Assembly: GCF_000739375.1 (NCBI RefSeq)
Contig: NZ_CP006704.1
Location: 1,674,001 to 1,738,000 of the forward strand
Origin: Comamonas testosteroni TK102
Lineage (GTDB): Bacteria > Pseudomonadota > Gammaproteobacteria > Burkholderiales > Burkholderiaceae_C
DNA: 64,000 nucleotides
Direction of reading: 5' to 3'
Positions 22,155 through 59,286 of this stretch are shown here, one piece after another. The notes beneath the pieces were generated by a model. That model had not been told where the DNA came from, made no database searches, and saw nothing but the letters and a program-made list of their open reading frames with translations. Every line of letters starts with the position of its first letter. Positions within the stretch are counted from its first letter, which is position 1. Position numbers and translations under genes: made by a program.

Positions 22155-22770
22155 AGAGCGGCTAACACCACCTATCCACGAAGCGTGCACAGATGATCCA
22201 GCGGCCAGTTTCAGCAACGCGTCGTGGATATCCAGCCGCCTTTCAAAGCGGATGCGCAGCTTGCCAAAGCCTGCAAACCAGCCATGTGTGCGTTCTACAA
22301 CGCAGCGATGCTTGCCTAGCTTTTCGCTGCTCTCGACACCTCGCCTGGCAATCCAGCTGGCAATGCCTCGTCGCCTGAGATAGGCGCGGCAGCGCTTGTA
22401 ATCGTAGCCTTTGTCCGCATGCAGCTTCGCCGGCCGCTTGCGTGCCAGCCCCGGCAAGCCGGCAATGGCTGGAATCGCATCCATACACTTCTCGAACATC
22501 ATGGAGTCATGCCTGTTGGCTCCACTGATGAGGATCACCAGTGGGATGCCTCTGGCATCTACGACGATATGCCGTTTGGAGCCGAGCTTGCCTCTGTCGG
22601 TGGGGTTGGGCCCGTTTCCTAGTCCACCTGAGGCTTGGCACCGAGGAGCTATCTATGCTGGCTCTGCTCCAATTAATCTGGTCATGCTCGCGCAGACGTA
22701 CCAGCATGGCTTGGTGCAAACGCTGCCAACGCCATTGTCCGTACAGCCGCTTGGCGGCCTACTGGTTCAC
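22155..22770 (-). pseudogene. IS5-family transposase remnant
   Basis: The segment is homologous to the better-preserved IS5-family element at 55992-56860. The 3' end includes the terminal repeat AGAGCGGCTAACACCA (22155-22170). Protein pieces include NRHDSMMFEKCMDAIPA, HADKGYDYKRCRAYLRR and VVERTHGWFAGFGKLR (the DDE Glu region). A 1-base deletion near the 3' end shifts the last residues, and the N-terminal 70 or so residues are missing beyond about 22770, where the XRE gene abuts. It cannot transpose on its own. Confidence 0.85.
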
Positions 22771-55825: not shown

Positions 55826-55991
55826 CTAAAAGACGCTATCGCAATACCAACTGGAAGCAGTACTGCTTCTCCGTTCCCTGACGATTTGGTTGGATCAGAA
55901 GGTGTCTTGGTTAGGCCCGTCGACAAGCCACTGGACTTTTGTCCATTCAGCACTCGAGCTACCTGGCCTTGTTTGGCCGGAACCAGACTTA
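55826..55991 (+). pseudogene. Remnant of another IS5-like transposase N-terminus
   Basis: Frames read RRYRNTNWKQY, then after a shift LTIWLDQKVSWL and HSALELPGLVWPEPDLRA. This resembles the N-terminal region of IS5-superfamily transposases with an internal deletion. It is cut on its right by the IS5-family element at 55992. Confidence 0.55.
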
Positions 55992-56036
55992 AGAGCCGCT
56001 AACACCACTTCCCTTTGAGACCGGCACGAAGCATTT

Positions 56037-56860
56037 ATGCTTCGTGCCCTCATGGCAAGACAACCCGTTAGCAAAGAGCTGTGGCGACAACTGCAGCCCC
56101 TGATTCCGTCCTTCACTCCTTCCGCCAAAGGTGGTGCACGCAAGCTCGGCGTGAGCAATGAAGCAGCACTCAATGGCATCTTGTTTGTGCTGCATACCGG
56201 CATCCCATGGGAAGACCTTCCACAGTCCCTGGGATACGGCAGTGGCATGACCTGCTGGCGGCGACTACGCGACTGGAGCGCCAGCGGCGTCTGGCAGAAG
56301 CTGCACCAAGCCATGTTGGTGCGCCTGCGTGAACATGACCAGATCGATTGGAGCCGGGCCAGCATTGATGGCTCCTCGGTACCAAGCCCCCGGGGGGCCA
56401 GGAAACGGGCCCCAACCCCACGGATCGAGGCAAACGCGGCACCAAGCGACACATCGTTGTAGACGCCAGAGGCATCCCGCTGGTGATCTTGGTCAGCGGC
56501 GCAAACAGACATGACTCGATGATGTTCGAGAAGTGCATCGACGCAATTCCTGCGATTGCAGGCTTGCCAGGACGAGCCCGCAAGCGACCAGCGAAGCTAC
56601 ATGCCGACAAAGGTTATGACTACCGGCGTTGCCGCGCCTATCTCAGGGGCCGGGGCATTGCTAGCCGAATTGCGAGACGAGGAATTGAGAGCAGCGAGAA
56701 ACTGGGCAGGCATCGTTGGGTCGTTGAGAGGACACACGGATGGTTTGCGGGCTTTGGCAAGCTGCGAATCCGTTTTGAAAAGCGCTTGGACATCCACGAA
56801 GCGTTGCTGAAATTGGCTGCTGCAATCATCTGCGCTCGCTTTGTGGATCGGTGGTGTTAG
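56037..56860 (+). CDS. IS5-family transposase in two overlapping frames
   Basis: The first frame (56037-56462) carries the N-terminal domain (KELWRQLQPLIPSFTPSA, GMTCWRRLRDWSASGVWQKL). The second (open to 56860) carries the DDE domain (GPNPTDRGKRGTKRH, HADKGYDYRRCRAYLRG, VVERTHGWFAGFGKLRIRFE). The frames join by a -1 shift at a run of six G near 56393-56398 (CCCCGGGGGGCC). Programmed -1 frameshifting is known in this group, so the gene may be functional, but simple mutation is also possible. Confidence 0.85.
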
Positions 56861-56946
56861 ATGGTATGGAAGCCTCCCTCCCGAGAGGCTTGTGCTCTGC
56901 ACCAATCAGGGCCAAGGTGTGAAGTCTTACTGCACAGGAGACTGTC

Positions 56947-57972
56947 ATGGACCATACCGTTATTGCGGTTGACACTGCCAAGAAGGTGTTCCAGTTGCAC
57001 TGGGTGGAGCACGATACGGGCAGCATAGAACGGCTGCAACTCAAGCGGGCGCGCTTGCTTGAATGGTTTGCCATCCGTGAGCCATCGCTCGTGGTGATGG
57101 AGGCTTGCGGCGGCGCGCATGAGTGGGCTCGCGCTTTGACGAAGTTGGGGCACGAAGTGCGCCTGATCTCTCCGCGCAAAGTCCGGCCGTTCGTTCAGCG
57201 CAACAAGACAGATGCCGCGGATGCACAGGCGATCTGGACAGCGTGCCAGCAGCCGGGCATGCGCTTTGTGCCCGTGAAGACCCAAGCGCAGCAGGTAGTG
57301 TTGTCGTTGCATCGGATCCGGGCGCAGCTCATGAAGAGCCGCATCATGCAGACCAATGAACTGCGAGGCATTCTCTATGAGTTCGGCCTTGTGCTGCCCG
57401 AAGGGCATCGCGCACTGCTCCAAGCAATACCAGACGCGCTTGCTGATGCAGCCCAACGCCTGCCAGCGATGTTGATGGAGAGTCTGAACGAGCAAGTGCG
57501 CCGCATTGCCCAACTGAGCCAGGATATCAATCAGATCGAACACAGGCTTGCCCAGCAACTGCGTGAGTCCCCGCACTGCCAGAGCGTTGCTCAGATACCC
57601 GGCATTGGCTTGCTCACGGCGACCGCAGTTGTTGCCAGCATGGGCAATGCCCAGGCGTTCAAAGACGCGAGAGAGTTCTCAGCGTGGGTCGGATTGGTGC
57701 CACGCCAAAGCGGCACAGGTGGTCGAGCGCGGCAAATGGGCATCAGCAAACGTGGGGACGCATATCTGCGAACGCTGTTGATGCACCCGGCGAGATCTGT
57801 TGTGCTTAAAAGCCACGAGGCGTCCGCATGGCCGTGGCTGCAAACGTTGCTCAAACGCAGGCCCTACAACGTAGTTGTTGCGGCAGTTGCCAACAAGCTG
57901 GCCAGGACCATCTGGGCCGTGCTTGCCAAAGGGCAAGCGTGGAGTGCGCAAGCTTGGCAGGGCGCGCACTGA
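56947..57972 (+). CDS. IS110-family (IS1111) DEDD transposase
   Basis: This 341-residue protein has a RuvC-like N-terminal domain with D in VIAVDTAKKVFQLHW (about residue 8), E in VVMEACGGAHEWAR (about 57) and the D pair in NKTDAADAQAIW (about 95-98). The C-terminal transposase_20 domain has PGIGLLTATAVVASMGNA, FSAWVGLVPRQSGTGG and the Ser-containing LLMHPARSVV. AGGAG precedes the ATG. It looks intact. Confidence 0.95.
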   Translation: MDHTVIAVDTAKKVFQLHWVEHDTGSIERLQLKRARLLEWFAIREPSLVVMEACGGAHEWARALTKLGHEVRLISPRKVRPFVQRNKTDAADAQAIWTACQQPGMRFVPVKTQAQQVVLSLHRIRAQLMKSRIMQTNELRGILYEFGLVLPEGHRALLQAIPDALADAAQRLPAMLMESLNEQVRRIAQLSQDINQIEHRLAQQLRESPHCQSVAQIPGIGLLTATAVVASMGNAQAFKDAREFSAWVGLVPRQSGTGGRARQMGISKRGDAYLRTLLMHPARSVVLKSHEASAWPWLQTLLKRRPYNVVVAAVANKLARTIWAVLAKGQAWSAQAWQGAH

Positions 57973-58228
57973 AGAGCACGAAGAATTGATTGCGAATCTG
58001 ACGTTTTGAAGGAGAGCAAGCGACCCGAAATGTGTGATGGACCAGACAGGTCGGACCGAGATGAGGACACTCCGATAACAGCCAAGAGCGCTCAGCTCGA
58101 GTGTTAGATGGGAGCCTCATCAGCGAATGCCATCAGTGCCAGCAGGTGTACCAGCCTGCGCAATAGGCCGGATATAAGACTGCAGCCCTGCCTCCTGATT
58201 CTTCATGCACAAGGGTTACTTGTAATCC
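57973..58228 (+). ncRNA. Putative guide (bridge/seek) RNA region of the IS1111 element
   Basis: This non-coding stretch lies between the transposase stop and the right inverted repeat, the place where IS1111-group elements encode their guide RNA. It contains GTGTTAGATGG (58101-58111), identical to the left insertion junction (56854-56864), and CAGCTC (58093-58098), identical to the right flank (58247-58252). ATATAAG (58172-58178) repeats the element's right end (58240-58246). RNA ends and fold are not determined. Confidence 0.65.
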
Positions 58229-58255
58229 GGGAGGCTTCCATATAAGCAGCTCTTA

Positions 58256-59286
58256 GTGGCGAAAACTGCACATCGGAATTTATGCACAGAAGCTGTAAAT
58301 ATGGGCGATTAGCGTGAGCTTCAATGAAGTACGTGATGCGGCTCTTATAGCCGATCTACTCAAATAATTCCCCGAAACCAAGCTGTGCATATTTCACTGG
58401 TGATCGTGCATATTACGCACGGCACGTTTATGAAGCGTTTATCAAAAGTAGTGCTGTCTCTATTATCTCTTACAAAGAAATGCCGGAAAACGCAAAGGAC
58501 ACTCCCTTTTTTACCGAGAAGTGGCTGTTGATTTGGAAGAAGAATAGAAGGATATGGAAAGTTTAGGGTCACTACTACCGACAAAGCTCTGTGGACGAAA
58601 AAACTAACTGCATAAGATTAATGGGCGAGCTGGTCATGTTCAGAAATTTTGGGCGCTATTTAATGAGCTCCACATTTCTGTAGAAATGAACAATAGGTTC
58701 ACTGAACGTGGTTACCCACCGACCCTCGCGGTGGCATAGCTTCGTCTGGAGGTTGTGGTTAGCTCGACCTAAAACAGGTTGACGCAATCGTGTCGGATTA
58801 GGGTAGAGCGTTCTCGTAGAAGTCAAGTATTAGCATTTTGAAAGTAATGTTAATCTATCTTGATCTGATATCAGATGATATCAAGTGATACATTCATATT
58901 AATTGAGTTACTTTGGAAGATGAGTGTGTCGATTGAAAATAATTTTTAGTTTGTCCATTAATAAATCAATAAGGTAATGATATTGATTTAATTGAAATAT
59001 GGTCAGAGTCTAATTGCTTTTTATTAAAGGTAATTAAAATTCACGATCAGAGTATAAATATTTTATCTCAAAGATTTCGGCAGTATAAATTCAATCGGAT
59101 ATTGGATATTTTTAAATTCCAGAGTGGCGCGAACTGGTAGTAATGTTGGCGTAATGTGGCAAGAATATGCGGTTCTATTATGTTTTAATTTGTATTAATT
59201 CGTAACGACGGGAAAATTAATTCCTGGCGAAAAAGTGAATAATTATACATAAACTAATTTAAGAAAATTTGCGCTGGATTTTCTCC
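58256..59286. promoter_or_regulatory. AT-rich intergenic region before the capsule locus
   Basis: No convincing gene is present in about 1 kb. ATCTGATATCAGAT (58863-58876) is a perfect 14-base palindrome, followed closely by GATATCAAGTGATA. AT runs increase towards 59200. The region probably holds the promoter of the AraC-type gene and could be an H-NS target. Confidence 0.5.

Follow-up and report, generated by a model that had tools for sequence, protein, structure and literature searches.

A predicted guide RNA directed at IS5-family terminal repeats in an IS1383-like IS1111-group element of Comamonas testosteroni TK102

Why does the non-coding region downstream of a transposase gene carry a copy of the junction at which the element itself is inserted? 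The question is raised by an insertion sequence of the IS1111 group in Comamonas testosteroni TK102, found in a stretch of 64,000 nucleotides (the window, to which all positions refer). The 11-base sequence GTGTTAGATGG is present as an exact match twice on the plus strand of the window, at the left junction of the element (56854) and in its 3' non-coding region (58101), with no reverse-complement copy. As the initial annotation of this DNA had held, such a match is improbable by chance: when the non-coding region minus its last 30 bases was shuffled 20,000 times with dinucleotides preserved, a word of at least 11 bases shared with a 31-nt stretch of the left junction arose in 9 shuffles. Comparison with related elements leads us to a reading that we consider very probable, namely that the IS1111 group is represented here by an IS1383-like element with a structured guide RNA programmed against the inverted repeats of IS5-family elements. 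The sequence basis of this reading comprises the element ends, uninterrupted sites, covariation between guides and targets and between the segment ATATAAG and the right end, RNA helices and adjacency to IS5 genes. Transcription, transposase binding, a circular intermediate and RNA-guided strand exchange are assumed by analogy with published work on IS1111 elements and IS621.

The element and the repeat that it interrupts

The element is complete, measures 1386 bp and occupies 56859-58244 on the plus strand, inside the right terminal repeat of an IS5-family element; these limits follow the ends common to its relatives and uninterrupted IS5 ends. The core dinucleotide AG is found at both junctions (56859-56860 and 58245-58246), and boundaries at 56861-58246 are equally valid. 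Its assignment to the IS1111 type, already proposed from the sequence, is upheld by a DEDD transposase gene of 341 aa at 56947-57972 (+; PF01548, PF02371 and NF033542), by sub-terminal repeats and by a downstream non-coding region. The transposase has the size and domains of the group (about 330-350 aa, PF02371 at the C-terminus). The sub-terminal inverted repeats, 11-13 bp in the group with extensions of 7 and 3 nt, are here 13 bp long: ATGGAAGCCTCCC at 56866-56878 (+), preceded by the 7-nt extension AGATGGT, and GGGAGGCTTCCAT at 58229-58241 (+), followed by the 3-nt extension ATA. The longer non-coding region typical of the group is also present, with 272 nt counted from tnp up to and including the right repeat. 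Both its position downstream of tnp and the presence of 13-bp repeats set the element apart from the IS110 group proper (IS621 type), where a long non-coding region precedes tnp and long sub-terminal repeats are lacking. The C-terminal part of the transposase can be aligned with the ISCro4 and IS621 recombinases, with Thr257 opposite the serine of ISCro4; TG is an allowed form in IS1111 according to the seekRNA study (PMC11187229).

The left part of the interrupted IS5-family element spans 55989-56858 (+), its left repeat starting at 55989, and two transposase frames are present at 56037-56462 and 56483-56860 (PF13340, PF01609 and NF033580). Beyond the insertion, the core AG and the remainder of the IS5 right terminal repeat (CAGCTCTTAG) occupy 58245-58256 (+), as recognized from the sequence and from uninterrupted IS5 ends. 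When the two flanks of the insertion are joined, they differ from the partner IS5 repeat at 3 of 21 positions. Uninterrupted IS5 ends in the same genome read GGTGTTAG-C(C/G)GCTCT.., which fits an insertion in the window with no loss or duplication beyond the common AG. A partial copy of the same IS5-family element at 22169-22733 of the window (minus strand) has an uninterrupted terminal repeat, GGTGTTAGCCGCTCTAA, that the IS1111 element could use.

The genome (6.06 Mb, one contig) contains one further copy of the element (L002), 92% identical and with two extra A's at its right junction. This copy is found at the 5' end of a minus-strand IS5 relative and thus sits in the other repeat. The earlier suggestions that the target is an IS5-family terminal repeat, and that other copies should be looked for at the same kind of site, were therefore well placed.

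Relatives, RNA structure and target guides

Relatives were gathered from a scan of named genomes (17 loci), from whole-genome searches and from plasmid records, the last of which yielded copies of the IS1383 family and two relatives in Pseudomonas. The whole-genome searches, in which E-value limits differed between ranks and the own genome was counted, gave matches in 12 of 53 genomes of the genus, 17 of 399 of the family, 4 of 399 of the order and 38 of 369 of the class. Viral contigs gave no match to the transposase and one, at a contig end, to the RNA motif. After exclusion of 25 of the 109 transposase hits, in which no pair of sub-terminal repeats was detectable, 84 elements with both ends remained: 22 close relatives (RNA and transposase), 23 at 50% identity or more and 39 more distant ones. 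The RNA is also present in L006, L017, L026, L037, L060 and L068, which stand outside both the 84 and the 22. The close set was chosen by RNA and transposase similarity in the script of the IS5 test, after the IS5 annotation beside L065 and L066 had been seen. Several elements are copies from one genome (L039, L052, L056 and L058; L011 and L012; five each in G415 and G957), so that counts are not independent, and the permutation tests take no account of the tree. After the right end of L008, L023, L038 and L040, a piece of their own RNA or right end is repeated, as if a partial second copy had been joined.

The conserved, structured part of the 3' non-coding region, at 58035-58183 (+), is the predicted guide RNA. 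Folding with covariance against related IS1111 elements, proposed at the outset as a check, gave a consensus of 37 pairs from an alignment of 18 sequences, with 97.4% of cells paired and two-sided changes in 8 pairs (23 cells). None of 500 shuffles reached the fold values or the covariation score, and 66 of 500 reached the further pair types, one of the five measures, in a test whose consensus structure was derived from the same alignment. An Rfam search returned nothing on the RNA; it matched a tRNA in L002 and, below the family's cut-off, a site immediately beyond the element.

Within this RNA, the predicted target-binding stem-loop (58060-58121, +) is closed by the helix 58060-58066/58115-58121, contains an inner helix 58071-58076/58108-58113 and is topped by the conserved hairpin GAGC-GCTCA-GCTC (58086-58098, +). 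In the hairpin, GAGC (58086-58089) pairs with GCTC (58095-58098), and compensatory changes occur in relatives. The target guides are placed on the two sides of the internal loop, a layout in agreement with published IS1111 seekRNAs (PMC11187229) and with the bridge-RNA idea (PMC11208160, PMC11208158). The consensus fold also pairs CCATC, the possible right donor guide (58130-58135), with an upstream, left-end-like TGATGG (58035-58040), as if the RNA itself kept this guide masked.

The RNA of the 22 close relatives can be aligned in fixed columns, and the five RNA bases before the core AG agree with the five left-flank bases at 69 of 80 positions (16 distinct combinations). Permutations gave a mean of 37.2 and a maximum of 59, and none of 100,000 reached 69; this count allows L010 a register with an extra left-end base and is otherwise 64 of 80 (L010 then 0 of 5). 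The two RNA bases ahead of these five carry no signal (4 and 1 matches, with 4.0 and 1.1 expected). One RNA scaffold is thus combined with different guides at correspondingly different targets, which makes guide positions mappable from sequence alone, and the relatives with other guides at other targets identify GTGTT plus the core AG (58101-58107, +) as the predicted left target guide. The left guide can indeed be read against its target, as had been claimed. The 11-base copy as a whole had been taken for the guide; the seven target bases stand, but its length was over-read, the final ATGG (58108-58111, +) being equal to the element's own left end inside the core and part of the inner helix.

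The predicted right target guide, TAACAGCC at 58076-58083 (+), is situated 5' of the hairpin and would pair with the top strand to the right of the insertion. Added up for 19 elements, the longest complementary runs come to 103, a total reached by 11 of 20,000 permutations (82.8 expected), and runs of 6-8 occur in 10 of the 19. The window copy has a longest run of 3 and fits at 6 of 8 positions; in L002 and L003 the fit is perfect (TTAGAGCC with GGCTCTAA). A top-strand complement (58076-58083) before a bottom-strand match (58101-58107) is the guide order of the IS1111 group, and this order was checked on the relatives. The right guide had initially been sought in CAGCTC (58093-58098), which does equal the first six right-flank bases. 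However, a word of at least 6 shared with the flank was obtained in 1403 of 5000 shuffles, and the hairpin whose 3' arm falls within CAGCTC is kept in relatives with quite different flanks, so that no meaning can be attached to the match; nor is it on the strand that a right guide has in the IS1111 group. Another candidate, AAGAGC (58085-58090), which complements the GCTCTT of the right flank, was likewise rejected: its bases, the 5' arm and edge of the hairpin, are mostly kept whatever the flank.

Related elements with the same RNA at unrelated targets would speak against a guide. As a rule the guides change with the targets, and such cases are therefore exceptions: the right flanks of L007 and L008 are unrelated to their right guide, that of L008 being the repeat of its own RNA, and L059 has the RNA and left flank of its four siblings with a different right flank. 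By sequence comparison, then, the downstream non-coding region behaves as the seek/bridge-type guide RNA that it had been suspected to be.

Donor-side segments and the meaning of the junction copy

Under the reading we favour, the partner of the transposase would be a structured RNA, transcribed from the DNA that separates the tnp stop codon from the right end. Of the two target guides, both in the stem-loop at 58060-58121, one would be directed at the top strand to the right of the insertion and the other, GTGTT plus AG, at the bottom strand to its left, and in a second part of the RNA ATATAAG, possibly with CCATC, would pair with the element's own joined ends in a circular intermediate. The AG common to target and donor would serve as the crossover core. 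The programmed target would be the inverted repeat at either end of IS5-family elements, with GGTGTTAGCGGCTCTAA as the expected insertion sequence. In the 11-base junction copy, the left guide and core would then be joined to ATGG, four bases of the stem that are identical with the element's left end.

ATATAAG is present at 58172-58178 (+) and at the right end (58240-58246), as first noticed, but it does not act as a target guide in the comparison, since the segment follows the element's own right end and not the target. It is the predicted left donor guide: segment and right end agree at 89 of 98 positions (14 distinct pairs; 74.1 expected), a value reached in none of 20,000 permutations. A possible right donor guide, ATGCCATC at 58127-58134 (+), is complementary to the left end at 7 of 8 positions; the signal is weak, with 88 of 112 matches (14 distinct pairs; 82.6 expected; 564 of 20,000 permutations) in a test that includes L041, L047 and L049, all out of register.

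It is less probable that the RNA carries target guides only, as in the seek model, that the ends are recognized by the transposase through the sub-terminal repeats, and that the ATATAAG match is structural or due to shared ancestry. The weak right donor match and the pairing of CCATCA inside the consensus fold are what such an RNA would lead one to expect, and for ISEc11 a short seekRNA of 82 nt with target matches was enough for movement (PMC11187229). However, ATATAAG covaries with the right end (ATATAAG, ATGTAAG, ATACAAG, ACATA and ATATAG), as a donor guide would, even if part of this signal could come from related sequences because the permutations ignore the tree. Donor-binding bases in IS1111 RNAs were also predicted by Durrant et al. 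(PMC11208160). That IS1111 RNAs carry a true donor guide and not only target guides has, together with the retargeting of a sister lineage described below, about an even chance of being correct. The natural series of elements makes the distinction between a donor guide (bridge) and target guides only (seek) directly testable for IS1111.

More doubtful is a handshake variant, in which the four bases that follow the left guide (ATGG) would pair with the left end of the element once the first strand has been exchanged, making the whole 11-base copy functional; given the reversed guide order of IS1111, exchange would begin with the bottom strand. Handshake guides have been described for IS621 (PMC11208158), and RNA and left end have AT in common after the core in most of the 16 combinations. 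Among the close relatives, a left end altered immediately inside the core occurs in L010 alone, where the RNA carries the same change (RNA AG-TTGG, left end AG-TTTGG) and one stem pair is lost (columns 71/115). A single event is, however, no covariation; L038, L039 and L052 combine AG-ACAG in the RNA with AG-ATGG at the left end, and ATGG is equally accounted for by the helix 58071-58076/58108-58113. Left-end differences in L061 and L069/L070, considered as handshake covariation, proved to be differences in core and target. Finally, chance repetition, or capture of an old insertion junction, with no guide function in either case, is a most improbable origin of the 11-base match: a few shuffles do reach this length and CAGCTC matches the right flank at chance level, but across the 16 distinct combinations these RNA columns vary in step with the flanks.

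IS5-family ends, known systems and a sister group at gene starts

Within 600 bp on the left-end side, an IS5-family transposase gene is found in 18 of the 22 close relatives, compared with 0 of 62 other IS1111 elements, the IS5 queries being drawn partly from the very loci tested. The close relatives with no IS5 gene nearby are L007, L071, L052 and L056; when L047, L049 and L050, which fall inside the close clade of the transposase tree, are added, the proportion becomes 18 of 25. Two IS5 subgroups are hit, and the left guides differ accordingly: GTGTT occurs next to the subgroup of the window, and guides such as TGTTC, TTTTC and TCTGC next to the second. A partner repeat with at most 3 mismatches was found for the joined flanks of the window element and of L003, 2 of the 21 compared.

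The RNA shared with IS1383 copies and the adjacency to IS5 genes place the element, as a new member, in the IS1383-like subgroup of RNA-guided elements; both features of that subgroup, the common RNA and an IS5-family inverted repeat as target, are present. The plasmid copies of IS1383 resemble the window element in RNA (83.7% over 92 nt), ends, guide layout and target (they adjoin IS5 transposase genes), but their transposase is only about 62% identical and their guides, TTTTC and TAGGGAA, are for another IS5 subgroup. IS1384 is an element of the IS5 family. Its inverted repeats are said to have been reported by Muller, Lauf and Hermann in 2001 as the specific target of IS1383, so this kind of target was already known. 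IS4321/IS5075, also of the IS1111 group, reportedly target the terminal repeats of Tn21-family transposons; by this description they are comparable in inserting into the terminal inverted repeats of another mobile element, but the host repeat is from another transposon family.

In ISEc11, ISKpn4 and ISPa11, as in the window element, the non-coding region lies downstream, the sub-terminal repeats carry extensions of 7 and 3 nt, a top-strand complement precedes the bottom-strand match and relatives are naturally retargeted (PMC11187229). Their RNAs were isolated with the transposase (PMC11187229), whereas that of the window element is predicted from sequence; in its relatives, on the other hand, a donor-side guide is backed by covariation. 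The bridge RNA of IS621 likewise has left and right guides in an internal loop, a common core dinucleotide and a donor-side guide (PMC11208160, PMC11208158). Compared with IS621, the window element has the guide order reversed, the RNA at the right end and not the left, the core AG and not CT, and long sub-terminal repeats (PMC11208160, PMC11208158). Guided elements as such are already known; the value of the present comparison resides in the series of retargeted relatives, in the donor segment that covaries with the right end and in the sister group.

In the transposase tree, 20 close relatives and 22 of the 23 next ones form one clade of 42 (support 1.0). Flanks were compared in the 22 next, 21 close and 38 distant elements with a full right flank. 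A Shine-Dalgarno-like word (core bases counted) precedes the insertion in 17 of 22 next-group elements, 0 of 21 close and 2 of 38 distant ones; an ATG follows 6-9 nt past the right end in 17, 1 and 2, and an ORF of at least 60 aa starts 4-12 nt past it in 11, 0 and 1, respectively. The sister-group elements with this arrangement are L021, L042, L043, L044, L048, L053, L055, L057, L059, L061, L069, L070, L073 and L102-L105, 10 of the 17 ATG cases being copies from two genomes; no ATG at 6-9 nt is present in L023, L040, L047, L049 and L050. Six of the 17 ATGs open an ORF of fewer than 60 aa, an argument against taking every one of them for a true start. Twelve downstream ORFs were located and ten scanned (nine of the sister group and that of L025); seven have Pfam families, and the six among these from the sister group belong to SRAP, DUF4126, CMD, GntR-FCD, thioredoxin and HTH/integrase transposase. 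The right guides of L021, L055, L069 and L104 are complementary to the spacer and the first two bases of the downstream ATG; across sister-group right guides, the fraction of other flanks scoring equally well ranges from 0.00 to 0.70. These flanks hint that the sister group may aim at the starts of genes, an unexpected target class. In-frame fusion of tnp to the ATG that lies within the left sub-terminal repeat was rejected as a reason for insertion after a Shine-Dalgarno word, since 22 of 23 elements of this group show no such fusion.

Taken jointly with the true donor guide, and with the same even chance, a natural radiation by retargeting would have led the window lineage to IS5-family ends and the sister lineage, through varied guides, to the interval between Shine-Dalgarno sequence and start codon. 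If this is true, RNA-guided transposons would have a new target class in translation-initiation regions, and what selection acts on would be the type of site that a guide names. L025, from the same genus and with a transposase about 44% identical, has flanks (TTGTGTTAGC and TGCTCTTAATG) that look like the IS5 repeat interrupted in the window, displaced by one base, although no IS5 gene was found within 600 bp and its right flank contains the start of a MaoC-domain ORF. The likeness may be coincidental or a product of convergent targeting.
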